From Salinibacterium sp. dk2585 (GTDB lineage: Bacteria > Actinomycetota > Actinomycetes > Actinomycetales > Microbacteriaceae), in the NCBI RefSeq assembly GCF_008001035.1, contig NZ_CP042856.1, positions 1,054,001 to 1,118,000 of the forward strand: DNA of 64,000 nt. Reading direction: 5' to 3'. Each line of letters begins with the position of its first letter. Position 1 is the stretch's first letter. The notes beneath the pieces were generated by a model. The model was not told the DNA's origin, did no database searches, and saw only the letters and a program-made list of their open reading frames with translations. Below are positions 114-5,272 of the stretch, in pieces. The translations under genes were made by a program, and so were the position numbers.

Positions 114-1295
114 TCAGCCGGCGCGGATGTTCGCCATGGCGGCGAGCACGACGCGCTGGACGCGAGTCTCGGTGAGCTCGTCTCGCTGCCAGTCGAGCTT
201 GCGCCCGAGATCGTTGACGATGCACATGCCCGCGAACACGAGGAACTGTGCCTCCGACAGGGAGAGCTCCGGCCGGATGCCGAGCAGGGAACGCACCCAG
301 TGGCCGACCGTGAAGGCCTGCATGCGCAGGAACTCCAGCTTCTGATCACCGGGGAGGCGACGGCCGTCGTTGAGGAAGGCCGTCATGCCCTCCGGCTCCT
401 CGAAGGAGTAGTGCACGTAGTTGCAGGAGAAGCCGATGAGGGCATCGCGGGGGGTCTCCGCCGTCGAGAGTACGTCATTGTCGATGCGCTGCAGTTCGGC
501 GTGACCCACCACGCAGGCCTCACGTAGCAAGCCGGAGAGGTCGCCGAACTCGCGCGCGATCACGTCAAGCGATACGCCGGATGCTGCGGCGACGTCATCG
601 GCGGCGACGGCACAGAAGCCGTCCCTGGCGAAGAGGGTCAGGGCGGCGCGCTGGATGCGACTGCGCGGGGAATCGTCGTGCCGCCAGGGCAGGTGCACCT
701 CGCGAGCTGGGGCGACCTCGCTCGGCCGCACGGGGGAGCTGTCGAGCACCCGCATGGCCGCCGTGGTCAGCAGCGTGAGGATCTTCTGTTCCGGCATGTC
801 GGTGGGGTGGATGGTGATGCTCGCGACGGCGCTCTGGGAGGCGGCCGCGAGCATCGCGACCTCTACCGGTTCCAGTTCAGGTCGCAGCAGGGCCAGGGGG
901 CGACGGATGCGCGCCTGCACCTCCTCGACGATGGCCGCGTTCTCGGCGCGGTCATCCGGGAGCAGGTAACGCACCTCCGAGCGGTAGAAGCCGCTCGCAT
1001 CGCGTTGCGCGATCGTGGCCCGCGCGGACGCCTCGATGACGGCGGCCAGCTGCGCGCGCGCCTGGCGTGAGTCCTGCACGTCTGCGACGAGGTGGTCGCT
1101 GGCGCGCAGGACGGTGCGCGCGGCGCCGAGCACGGATTGCGCGAAGAGCGCGTACTTGTCTGGCGATTGCCGTTCGAGGTCATCGCTCGACAGGCCGGCC
1201 GCTGCGGCGATGTCGTGCAGCGTGGTGCGCAGGTAGCCCTGGGAGGCGAAGACCCGTGCGGCCGCAGAGAGCACGAGTGTCGAGGTGTCGGTCAT
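114..1295 (-). CDS. Double-HTH TetR-family regulator (third gene of the array)
   Basis: A 393-residue transcriptional regulator, about twice the usual TetR length of roughly 200. It has two complete TetR-type DNA-binding domains: one near residues 5-50 (VFASQGYLRTTLHDIAAAAG) and one near residues 212-255 (ALTLFARDGFCAVAADDVAA). Each is followed by a helical ligand/dimer-type domain. The ATG at 1293-1295 overlaps the stop of the upstream gene (ATGA), so translation is coupled; an upstream in-frame start exists but would run deep into that gene. It is the last gene of three paralogues. Ligand and targets are unknown. The family call is firm, the tandem architecture is directly visible. Confidence 0.88.
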   Translation of the reverse strand: MTDTSTLVLSAAARVFASQGYLRTTLHDIAAAAGLSSDDLERQSPDKYALFAQSVLGAARTVLRASDHLVADVQDSRQARAQLAAVIEASARATIAQRDASGFYRSEVRYLLPDDRAENAAIVEEVQARIRRPLALLRPELEPVEVAMLAAASQSAVASITIHPTDMPEQKILTLLTTAAMRVLDSSPVRPSEVAPAREVHLPWRHDDSPRSRIQRAALTLFARDGFCAVAADDVAAASGVSLDVIAREFGDLSGLLREACVVGHAELQRIDNDVLSTAETPRDALIGFSCNYVHYSFEEPEGMTAFLNDGRRLPGDQKLEFLRMQAFTVGHWVRSLLGIRPELSLSEAQFLVFAGMCIVNDLGRKLDWQRDELTETRVQRVVLAAMANIRAG

Positions 1296-2503
1296 CTGAT
1301 CAACGCCATGACCATGCACGCGAACTTTTCGATCCTGCGTGTGGTCGCGTCGTCGTTCTTCCACCGGAGCATGCGGGCAAGGTCGCTCACGAGGCTCATG
1401 GAGGCGAAGGCGAGGAAGGTCGCCTCGGTGGGCGACAGCTCCGGCCGGGCATCCTGCATGGCCCTCGTGCAGAGGGTGACCGAGTAGTCCTGCAGCTCGA
1501 GCATCGGGCCGTGGTCGCCGTCGTCGAAATTGCGCGCGTCAGCGAGGTAGACGGTCATGAGCTTGTAGTCGACCATGTAGTGGCGCACGTAGGCGCGGCA
1601 CAGGCCGAGGAGGGTGTCGCGCGCGCTGACGGAGCTCTCCAGCGCCTGGTTGAGGTCGGTCTTGAGCGCTTGGTAGCCGTTGAGGCATCCGCGCGTCAGA
1701 ATGTCGGAAAGGGAGGCGTGCTGTCGTGCCCACGCGACATCGATTCCCGCAGCGGTCGCGACGTCGTCGATCGTGACGGCGTGGTACCCACGCTGGAAGC
1801 ACAGGTCGACCGCGGCCTTGAGGAGCTGCCCATCCCTGCTGGTGTCGTCATGCCAGGTGGGGCGGGTCGCCGGCTGGTCGATGTGCACCTGCGCGGGGGC
1901 AGGTTCGCTGTCGAGCATCCTCATTGCGGTGACCGTGAGGAGCGTCTGCACCTTGGGTGCGGGGAGGCTCGTGGCATGGATCGTGATGCTCGCGATGACG
2001 CTGAAGGCGGCCGCGGCCATGAGGGTTGCGTCGTCCTCCGTGAGCTTCGGGCGGTGAAGCATCAGCGGCTGCCACACTCGACGGTGCAGTTCGCCGATGA
2101 GTTCGCTGAGCTCATGCGCGTCTTCGCGGCGAAGGTAGCGGTGCTCCGAACGGTAGAAGCCGCCCGTCGCGCGAGTGGCGATCGCAACCCGGGTGGCGTT
2201 CTCGATGATGCGGGTGATGACGCTGCGCGCCTGCCGTGGGTCATGCGTCTCGATGCCGTCCGTTGCGCGCACCATCTCCCGCGCGTTCGCGAGCACGACA
2301 TCTTTGAAGAGTGCGTACTTGTCCTCGTAGTGGGTGGAGAACGTCTCGGCGTCCAGGCCCGCTTCGGAGCACACCTCTTCGATGCTGGCGTCGTTGTAGC
2401 CGCGTGTGGCGAACACTCCGGCAGCGACGATGCGCAGACGGGTGCGGGGGTCTGCAAGGGTGGGGGACGTGGCGGCGTCCGGGTTCGACGTGTCGTTGTG
2501 CAT
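1292..2503 (-). CDS. Double-HTH TetR-family regulator (second gene of the array)
   Basis: A 403-residue TetR-like protein with two HTH units: near residues 18-65 (AAGVFATRGYNDASIEEVCS) and near residues 232-275 (CFQRGYHAVTIDDVATAAGI). The linker regions carry the same helical pattern as in its two neighbours, including a shared GFYRSE(V/H)RYL segment with the downstream paralogue, which points to tandem gene duplication. The start is the ATG preceded by AAAGGAGCAACGG. It begins 31 bases after the stop of the first array gene and ends in an ATGA overlap with the third. One polypeptide could form an intramolecular pseudo-dimer; this is inference. Confidence 0.9.
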   Translation of the reverse strand: MHNDTSNPDAATSPTLADPRTRLRIVAAGVFATRGYNDASIEEVCSEAGLDAETFSTHYEDKYALFKDVVLANAREMVRATDGIETHDPRQARSVITRIIENATRVAIATRATGGFYRSEHRYLRREDAHELSELIGELHRRVWQPLMLHRPKLTEDDATLMAAAAFSVIASITIHATSLPAPKVQTLLTVTAMRMLDSEPAPAQVHIDQPATRPTWHDDTSRDGQLLKAAVDLCFQRGYHAVTIDDVATAAGIDVAWARQHASLSDILTRGCLNGYQALKTDLNQALESSVSARDTLLGLCRAYVRHYMVDYKLMTVYLADARNFDDGDHGPMLELQDYSVTLCTRAMQDARPELSPTEATFLAFASMSLVSDLARMLRWKNDDATTRRIEKFACMVMALIR

Positions 2504-2534
2504 CCGTTGCTCCTTTGCTGCGGGTGAGTGCGCT

Positions 2535-3755
2535 TCAGCGACCGCCGATGAGAGTCGCGAGAACGAGACGCTCGGTTTTCGCCATTGCCTCGTGGTCGTA
2601 CTCCCAGTTCACGTGGATGCCGACGTCCTCAACGATATTGAGGGCGGCGTACACGAGGAAGCGGGCTTCGGCGTCGGCGAGCTCCGGGCGGATGGCCTTG
2701 ACGTTCTCCAGCCAGCCTTCCATGAACTCCTCGTGCAGCTGCGCGGCACGCTCTGCGTACTGCAGAGGGAGATGGTGCCCGTCGAGGATGAACACCGTCA
2801 TGAGCTTAGGGTCGGTGAAGTAGTGCTCGACAAACTTGTGGCTGAGCGCGAGCAGGATGTCGCGGGGGAGCCTTCCTGCCTCCTTCGCCGCGTTGTCCAT
2901 CGCATCGCGCATGATTGCTCCGCCCGTCGCGAATGCGGCAGTCAGGAGGTCGGCGGTGTTCTTGACCTTCCGCTCGATCGCCCACTTCGGGAAGCCGGTC
3001 TCCCGGGCGATGTCCTTCATGGTGACCGCGGAGAAGCCCTTCGCGTAGACAAGGTTGATGGTCGCGGCGATGACCCGGCCGGTCTTGCTGTTGTCCGCCA
3101 TCCACGGTGGGGTCATGCGGGGGCGGAACTCGCCCGTGGTGGCGGTGAGGGCCGACTGGCTCTCGAGGAGGCGCATGGCCGATACGACGAGGATTGTCTC
3201 CAGCTTGGGGCTGGGCAAGACGGTTGGCGCCGCCCCCGCTGTCGCAATCGTGCTCGCAGCGGCACGGGAGAGGAGTTCGACGTCGCCGCTGTTGAGGTCG
3301 GGACGCACGCGATGCAGTAGGGCGGCGATGCGCTCGTTGATGGTGGCGTGGGTGGCTCGGAGCTCCGCCTGGTCTTCCGCGGTGAGATAGCGATAGTCGC
3401 CGCGGACGAAACCAGCGCGAGTGCGGCGGGCGACGTGGGCGGCGGCGAGTGACTCGAGCATGGAAAGGAGGAGGGCACGTGCCTGGCGGGTGTCGTCGGG
3501 CACGTTTGCGCCGATGTCGGTGGCGGCTCTGAGCTCGCGGGCACTCGTCAGCATGCACTCGCGGAAGAGGTCGTAGACCGTGGGGAACTCTGCCTTGAGC
3601 GTGTCGCAGTCGACGCCGGTCTCGGAGCAGACCTCCTCGAGCGTGGCGTTCACGAAACCGCGGGTGTCAAACAGCTCGACGCCTGCGTCGATGACGCGCC
3701 GCCGGAGGTCCGAAGTCGTTTCGGAGGTGCGGGCGGCGGAATTCGGGTGGGACAT
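2535..3755 (-). CDS. Double-HTH TetR-family regulator (first gene of the array)
   Basis: A 406-residue protein with two TetR HTH domains, near residues 18-60 (LFDTRGFVNATLEEVCSETG) and near residues 235-280 (VYAKGFSAVTMKDIARETGF). The ATG at 3753-3755 is chosen because GAAGGG lies upstream and the family homology begins just after it; a longer in-frame extension to 3878 would cover the repeat-rich leader and is rejected. It heads the three-gene unit. The upstream region contains several GGGGTACAA-like elements that may be its operators. No non-regulatory gene is co-transcribed, so its physiological role cannot be read from context. Confidence 0.9.
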   Translation of the reverse strand: MSHPNSAARTSETTSDLRRRVIDAGVELFDTRGFVNATLEEVCSETGVDCDTLKAEFPTVYDLFRECMLTSARELRAATDIGANVPDDTRQARALLLSMLESLAAAHVARRTRAGFVRGDYRYLTAEDQAELRATHATINERIAALLHRVRPDLNSGDVELLSRAAASTIATAGAAPTVLPSPKLETILVVSAMRLLESQSALTATTGEFRPRMTPPWMADNSKTGRVIAATINLVYAKGFSAVTMKDIARETGFPKWAIERKVKNTADLLTAAFATGGAIMRDAMDNAAKEAGRLPRDILLALSHKFVEHYFTDPKLMTVFILDGHHLPLQYAERAAQLHEEFMEGWLENVKAIRPELADAEARFLVYAALNIVEDVGIHVNWEYDHEAMAKTERLVLATLIGGR

Positions 3756-3800: not shown

Positions 3801-3900
3801 GGGGGGACAAAATGGGGGTACAGAATCCCCCAGTGTGGGGGCAAATACGGGGCATTCTGCCGGAAAACCGGGGTACAAGGCGGCCCCCAGTTTGTACCCC
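3801..3900. promoter_or_regulatory. Repeat cluster upstream of the TetR array (putative operators)
   Basis: Within 100 bases there are GGGGGGACAA (3801-3810), GGGGGTACA (3814-3822), GGGGTACAA (3870-3878) and its inverted copy TTGTACCCC (3892-3900). The last two form a 9-bp inverted repeat with a 13-bp spacer. A second inverted pair is TGGGGG (3813-3818) and CCCCCA (3827-3832). TetR proteins bind inverted repeats and often repress their own promoter, so these are the best operator candidates for the array. Binding is inferred, the repeats are seen. Confidence 0.55.
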
Positions 3901-4022: not shown

Positions 4023-4096
<74 letters not shown>

Positions 4097-4136
4097 CAGA
4101 AGGGTCGTTCTAAAAACCGTCCCAAATACTCAAAGC

Positions 4137-4321: not shown

Positions 4322-4694
4322 CTAGATTCTGAGTGGAGACGCCAGTTCACCTTGGTGGTAGAGCAGGATGACCGGATCGTCCGGGAGTGTCCCCGTGTAC
4401 CGGTTGATGCTCACCCGGTCGCGGCGGCGCCGCTTCTTCTCGCCGGGGTCGCTTGGTTGGTCCTTCAGCGCTGCGATGGCTTCTTCTTTTAGGAAGGTGG
4501 CGATGGCGCGCAGGTTGTAGACGGTGAGCAGGAATGCCATGAAGAATCCGGCCGCTGCGAATCCGCGGACCCGACGCCGCGAGGGACTATCGATGTTTTC
4601 CTGGCCGTCATCCTTGCTGTTGCCGTTGAGTCCTTCGATGCTGTTCCGAGCGTGCTTGTGGAACTCATGCCACTCGTCGCTCTTGTACTGGAAG
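4322..4694 (-). pseudogene. C-terminal remnant of a transposase-like protein
   Basis: The minus-strand frame is open from the stop at 4322 to the IS3 end near 4694 and encodes about 124 residues. These include WHEFHKHARNSIEGLNG, then GRRRVRGFAA-like (here SRRRVRGFAAAGFF) and a basic tail. This pattern, RNSIEG followed by RRRVRGFAA and a hydrophobic NLR segment, is what I associate with the C-terminus of actinobacterial transposase-like proteins carried on mobile DNA. The 5' part is missing: the frame ends abruptly at the inserted IS3 derivative and is not continued on the other side. It is certainly a fragment; the exact family is uncertain. Confidence 0.55.
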
Positions 4695-5043
4695 GGGACT
4701 GATGAACGTCTTGGTGACTCTTCGAGTTAGGCCGCGAGTGCGGCCGGTGTGGTCATGATGGTCTCGAATTCGATCGGCGTCAAACGGCCCAACGCTCGCT
4801 GTCTCCTGCGGCGGTGATAGGTCGCCTCGATCCAGGACACGATCGCCAGGCGGAGTTGCTGGCGAGTTGCCCATCGGTGCTGGTTCAGGAGGTTCTTCTG
4901 CAGTAGTGCGAAGAAGCACTCCATCGCTGCGTTGTCTTCGGCGGCACCGACCCGGCCCATCGATCCGGTGAGCCCGGCGGCGCTGAGTTCGTGAACGAGG
5001 ACGCCGCACCTCGCGTCTGCGCTCAACCTTCTCAGGCAGTCCC
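4695..5043 (-). mobile_element. Internally deleted IS3-family element (about 349 bp)
   Basis: The element starts with GGGACTG at 4695-4701 and ends with CAGTCCC at 5037-5043. The next roughly 20 bases inward also match in inverted orientation (GGTGACTC-like against GGTTGAGC), as expected for IS3 terminal repeats. Between them only the last third of the integrase-type transposase remains. Because both ends survive, it is an internal deletion derivative that could in principle be moved by an intact relative. No clear target-site duplication is visible. Confidence 0.7.
4727..5010 (-). pseudogene. IS3-family transposase OrfB, C-terminal remnant
   Basis: About 93 residues from HELSAAGLTGSMGRVGAA through ATYHRRRRQRALGRLTPIEF to the TAA at 4727-4729. 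This is the end of the DDE integrase core of IS3 OrfB, containing the region with the catalytic Glu (DNAAMECFF) but lacking both Asp residues, so it cannot catalyse transposition. The frame continues to 5155 through unrelated sequence beyond the IS end, which is not real coding. Confidence 0.85.
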
Positions 5044-5053
5044 TGGTTTGCTC

Positions 5054-5080
5054 TTGACTCTGTGGCTGGCACAGGGTCTT
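5054..5080 (+). repeat. Dispersed palindromic repeat, copy 1
   Basis: TTGACTCTGTGGCTGGCACA followed by GGGTCTT. It fits the pattern TTGAC-N2-TGT-N7-ACA-N2-GTSTY shared by several copies up to 17.1 kb. It abuts the IS3 derivative. Confidence 0.6.
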
Positions 5081-5149
5081 TACTCGGTGGGTATACCGCA
5101 ATCTTGATCGCTGAGAGAGAACCCATGTCTCATCTGCACGGAGAACGCC

Positions 5150-5272
5150 ATGCACGCTGACCTCGGGGAATCCTTGCTCGCCTTCGCGGGAGTTGCGGGG
5201 ATCCTTCTCGGTACCTTCATCGTCGGGGTCTTCTTTTACCTCGACTTGCGAGTACAGCCGCGCTGGTCATGA
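5150..5272 (+). CDS. 40-residue single-pass membrane protein
   Basis: ATG at 5150 preceded by CGGAGAACGCC, stop at 5270-5272. The product is a short N-terminus, one hydrophobic helix (about residues 8-29, SLLAFAGVAGILLGTFIVGV and following FFYL) and a short polar end (RVQPRW). No homologue is recognised. Small bitopic proteins next to respiratory dehydrogenases can be accessory subunits, and poxB starts 123 bases downstream, but a hairpin lies between. Strong SD and membrane-helix composition argue for a real gene. Confidence 0.5.
   Translation: MHADLGESLLAFAGVAGILLGTFIVGVFFYLDLRVQPRWS

Follow-up and report, generated by a model that had tools for sequence, protein, structure and literature searches.

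An array of three Mce3R-type tandem TetR genes with remodelled recognition helices in Salinibacterium

Gene content and history of the locus

The analysed window, a stretch of 64,000 nucleotides from Salinibacterium sp. dk2585 (genome G000), carries three co-directional genes on the minus strand, which run from position 3755 down to 114 in the order 3, 2, 1. Gene 3, the first of the operon (2535–3755), encodes a tandem TetR protein of 406 aa, gene 2 (1292–2503) one of 403 aa, and gene 1 (114–1295) one of 393 aa. Genes 3 and 2 are separated by 31 bp, and the stop codon of gene 2 overlaps the start of gene 1 in an ATGA at 1292–1295. This stop/start overlap is kept as GTGA in two other Salinibacterium genomes (G001 and G002), and the three genes are probably co-transcribed. 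The TetR_N domain (PF00440, Pfam) was detected twice in each protein (48–59 bits per whole protein, above the gathering score), and a genome scan for single TetR_N HTHs with a cut-off of 24 bits matched the six HTHs separately (24.9–35.5 bits). The proteins align pairwise from end to end with 32–38% identity; therefore, fusion of the two halves preceded gene duplication, and the genes are, judging by these alignments, duplicates of an already fused protein. The first-pass annotation had described three adjacent, coupled genes of about 400 residues which arose by duplication, and had proposed an HMM search for double TetR_N matches; the description was borne out, and the search gave the double match for every one of the three proteins.

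Gene 1 is followed by a convergent NUDIX gene, while intergenic DNA and a tRNA-Pro (GGG) gene (4023–4097, plus strand) lie upstream of gene 3. The claim that the array has no non-regulatory partner is correct for the window genome but does not extend to G004, where a single copy is located tail-to-tail with fadB-fadA. To the right of the tRNA gene, at 4665–5155, an integrase-core-like ORF was recognized by eye as an apparent transposase remnant.

Among the genomes surveyed, only G000, G001, and G002, all of them Salinibacterium, have the triple array. Two more genomes of the genus, G003 and G004, have one gene each at the same chromosomal place. In the family survey, 13 of 400 genomes gave a match at the threshold used, and the full-length proteins outside the genus were all single copies. 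In the phylum survey (397 genomes), scoring covered the four top candidates of each genome, which makes the counts lower bounds; most full-length tandem TetRs came from two other families, and the actinobacterium G647 contributed one adjacent pair. The survey for arrays of two or more genes, suggested at first pass, thus returned the triple from three genomes of one genus and a single pair outside it. The array was rejected as a unique module, since a published example exists in Mce3R and a pair occurs in G647.

In the phylogenetic tree, the eleven Salinibacterium proteins formed one clade (100/100), within which genes 1, 2, and 3 were each orthologous across the three genomes. Gene 2 was nearest to the single copies of G003 and G004, the G003 copy grouping beside it (92/90). 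Gene 3 was 94% identical to its orthologue in G001 and 76% in G002. Between G000 and G002, the array proteins shared 56–76% identity vs. 84–93% for NUDIX and der. Values of dN/dS between G000 and G001 were 0.11–0.19 per gene and 0.10–0.24 per half, and no frame break was found in any of the 11 genus genes; by these measures purifying selection acts on each of the three genes. In each of the five genus genomes, the array or the single gene adjoins the der-to-NUDIX block, and in four of them tRNA-Pro is the upstream neighbour. This constant place indicates that the genus has had the locus for a long time, and a recently acquired island was rejected on the same grounds. In G004, an integrase-like gene and a repeated 3' part of tRNA-Pro occur next to tRNA-Pro(GGG) (L043, 5000–8550); this tRNA gene, the upstream neighbour of the array, has probably served for integration in that genome.

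Fold, relatives, and gene neighbours

The only solved protein that matched the array proteins over the full length was Mce3R (PDB 9b7y; profile E-value 2.7e-33), which is also the one solved example of a double TetR protein that we found. In Mce3R from M. tuberculosis, studied by cryo-EM, a single chain forms an omega fold (pseudo-dimer) with one ligand-binding domain and two HTHs that differ from each other, the binding site is a non-palindromic sequence of 25–27 bp, and the protein autoregulates (PMC11667970). Binding to an asymmetric operator, as suggested at first pass, is therefore already in print for a double TetR and is not new (PMC11667970). An AlphaFold model of gene 2, the only member with a usable structure model, was built from 12 sequences (pLDDT 86, pTM 0.84) and superimposed on 9b7y with TM-scores of 0.80/0.83 over 388 columns; the other leading structural matches covered one half only. 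The built-in pseudo-dimer suggested by the first-pass annotation was recovered in this single-chain prediction, so that an intramolecular pseudo-dimer is well supported by modelling, though not a new idea.

By fold and homology, the array falls among the Mce3R-type tandem TetRs, which are known but uncommon. Like Mce3R (Rv1963c), each member is one chain of about 400 aa with two TetR units that matches over the full length in sequence, and for gene 2 the model adds a full-length match in fold and a predicted single-chain omega shape. There are also differences: Mce3R is about 22% identical in the structural alignment, keeps the helices YRHY/YRSF where those of the array are remodelled, and is a single gene beside the mce3 operon, whereas the array has three copies and no adjoining lipid operon in the window genome. 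The pair in G647 (L141, 3846–6556) resembles the array in being adjacent, on the same strand, and duplicated (62% identity to each other); it differs in having two copies instead of three, no overlap, and a TetR signature kept in the first halves, and in lying beside mce and AMP-ligase genes, here mce genes and an acetyl-CoA synthetase-like gene; it is a natural Mce3R-type array of two copies. For each half, the leading single-domain structural matches included Fad35R/BkaR (Rv2506) and KstR2, but these are single TetRs with one HTH per chain that act as homodimers. The SACE_7040 family (NF050111) was the top NCBIfam match for all three proteins; membership in this equivalog was rejected at 64–93 bits vs. 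a cut-off of 250.

Distant tandem TetRs adjoin genes for AMP-binding ligases, acyl-CoA dehydrogenase, CoA-transferase, and aldehyde dehydrogenases, and others lie next to thiolase or to mce genes with an AMP ligase. No lipid or mce genes flank the array in the window genome. Only in G004 does fadBA adjoin the tandem TetR gene, and the FadB of this genome has counterparts of only about 30% identity in other genomes. Given these neighbours, an acyl-CoA or lipid-type ligand is the best guess, and by analogy the most likely one, for the ancestral family. The window genome also has a second tandem TetR, only distantly related to the array (L002, 8010–9542; C1, ca. 276–277.5 kb), adjoining CoA-transferase, CitE-like, alpha/beta hydrolase, and ABC transporter genes (annotation by eye).

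Recognition helices and the role of the proteins

The recognition helix of an ordinary TetR follows a Tyr-x-x-Phe-x-x-Lys pattern, in which Tyr is typical although not absolute. All six DNA-reading helices of the array lack the signature Tyr and five are acidic, which is a derived and unusual state and the new point of this analysis. On the minus strand, these are the helix stretches of the first and second HTH of gene 3 (3585–3641, LEEVCSETGVDCDTLKAEF, acidic; 2967–3020, MKDIARETGFPKWAIERK, basic), of gene 2 (2330–2383, charge −6; 1718–1771, with a one-residue deletion), and of gene 1 (1167–1220; 546–602, charge −5). The second helix of gene 3 was the only basic one of the array (+3, and +2 in G002).

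The signature Tyr was present in 0 of 16 HTHs of the clade (the arrays of G000 and G002 and the single genes of G003 and G004), a count that amounts to about two changes on one stem and not to sixteen independent events, because the members share ancestry. It was found in 10 of 10 HTHs of five distant tandem TetRs and in 19 of 23 single TetRs, so that four single TetRs also lack it. The Lys of the helix was retained in six of the 16 clade HTHs. The mean net charge of the helix stretch was −2.9 in the clade vs. 0.0 in other tandem TetRs and +0.9 in single TetRs. Further distant tandem TetRs keep the Tyr pattern, most of them in both halves, and the second tandem TetR of the window genome retains F-x-x-K in both halves and Tyr in the second. 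Canonical helices in both halves, common to other Mce3R-type members, were not observed in the array; they are not known to be required. The six HTHs, described at first pass as complete, are thus complete in domain detection and predicted fold, but the Tyr of the DNA-contact signature is missing from every one of them.

Between the G000 and G002 orthologues of genes 1 and 2, the helices were 35–60% identical vs. 56–68% for the ligand-binding parts. The reverse was seen in distant tandem TetRs (G232/G212/G290), with 57–80% for helices vs. 29–47% for ligand parts. The helices of gene 3 were as conserved as the rest of the gene.

The likeliest description is, as far as sequence can tell, one of pseudo-dimers that derive from lipid sensors and bind DNA in an altered or weakened way, with gene 3 as the strongest candidate for a DNA binder. 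The array would then be a genus-restricted triplication of an Mce3R-type regulator. Each chain is expected to fold alone into the omega shape that ordinary TetRs make as homodimers, with two HTHs on a pseudo-symmetric core, and remodelling in the Salinibacterium lineage would have affected the recognition helices in each of the two halves, which lost Tyr and mostly turned acidic. Since the helices are remodelled in this way, the products of genes 1 and 2 have most likely ceased to be self-standing DNA-binding repressors and may bind ligands as partners within a co-expressed assembly. Gene 3 has a basic second helix and the best-conserved DNA-binding domains, and its product would be the subunit most likely to touch DNA. 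We put forward this account as a whole, weakened DNA binding and partnership included, tentatively and at a little below even confidence. The earlier proposal that pairs of complete DNA-binding domains act combinatorially is weakened by six recognition helices without Tyr, five of them acidic.

A more radical version, which we consider possible but doubtful, is that the pseudo-dimers gave up DNA binding and that triplication turned them into a co-translated assembly for ligand sensing or anti-regulation, in which no more than one half, the second HTH of gene 3, would still touch DNA. Against such a loss, the helices keep some constraint and those of gene 3 match the rest of the gene; changed specificity fits equally. 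A lineage with a triplication and rewritten helices, and with the parent form elsewhere, offers a natural series for comparing new specificity with lost DNA binding in a fused TetR pseudo-dimer.

Promoter boxes and alternative explanations

Four TGT(A/C)CCCC boxes were found within 100 bp between gene 3 and tRNA-Pro, compared to two elsewhere in the 64 kb window. Two of them form the inverted pair GGGGTACAA-n13-TTGTACCCC at 3870–3900, the sole such pair in the genome; the other two are promoter-proximal (3802–3822, minus strand). G001 keeps the half-sites of the pair, and so does G002, with a mismatch in one of them, while the spacer has diverged. The spacing is kept in both genomes (19 bp inside GGGGTA...TACCCC and 55 bp to the next box). 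In each of the five genus genomes, similar boxes precede the tandem TetR, including the single genes of G003 and G004. The layout at the promoter is an inverted pair plus further copies; the operator expected of an Mce3R-type protein is a non-palindromic site of about 25 bp.

The bare 9-mer TTGTACCCC was no more frequent than its reversed control, and only its placement and the longer form were informative. TTGTMCCCCNAA gave 17 matches vs. three for the reversed control in the genus, and eight vs. 13 in 20 other genomes. Away from the array, 33 of 41 TTGTACCCC sites in the genus were intergenic, compared to 0 of seven in G018 and nine of 16 in G010, these placement counts resting on pattern searches, retrieved stretches, and a home-made gene caller. 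The motif TTGT(A/C)CCCC looks real, and the array may be merely one target of its putative binder.

Such boxes allow another explanation, namely that all three proteins are DNA-binding repressors re-tuned to TTGT(A/C)CCCC at their own and other genus promoters, triplication allowing responses to different ligands at shared sites. The crowding of boxes at the array, their recurrence before the tandem TetR in the five genus genomes, the enrichment of TTGTMCCCCNAA, and the mostly intergenic sites elsewhere agree with it. However, acidic helices are unlikely DNA readers, and the motif was absent upstream of the tandem TetRs in three other genera. Moreover, no tandem TetR was found in G010, which represents another Microbacteriaceae genus, although this genome has intergenic sites. 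The boxes precede a gene for a CAP-like secreted protein (CAP-like by resemblance only, with no Pfam match) in all five genus genomes, and in G010 the motif lies upstream of the same gene. We rate the re-tuned repressors as rather unlikely; the tandem TetRs as sole owners of the motif were rejected because of G010.

The same G010 sites, together with the functionally mixed genes at which the motif occurs, would suit an array that is only the target of another regulator binding TTGT(A/C)CCCC, with the three proteins acting elsewhere. This leaves the role of the proteins unexplained, and autoregulation is common among TetR proteins, Mce3R being an example (PMC11667970); we regard it as unlikely. 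Chance retention of decaying orphans of an ancestral lipid regulator after loss of the target genes, to which the fast evolution of the array proteins and the restriction of adjacent fadBA to G004, with its FadB of low identity to other counterparts, could point, is improbable and already disfavoured by the low per-gene dN/dS, the intact frames of all 11 genes, and the gene order kept in three species.

The CAP-like gene of the window genome (L053, 3037–3855; G000:C1:755036–755851) has a multi-box promoter, the layout of which is conserved in G000, G001, and G003, and in G000 a single TetR gene is located just upstream of it. TTGT(A/C)CCCC was also found near Flp/Tad pilus, Bax-inhibitor-like, acetyl-CoA synthetase, T2SSE ATPase, peroxiredoxin, and GGDEF genes; its occurrence near diverse genes in Salinibacterium and one other Microbacteriaceae genus makes a wider regulon a candidate. 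In G004, identical motif-bearing stretches are present on two contigs (L091 and L093; C4 and C5), representing either a repeated region or an assembly duplication.
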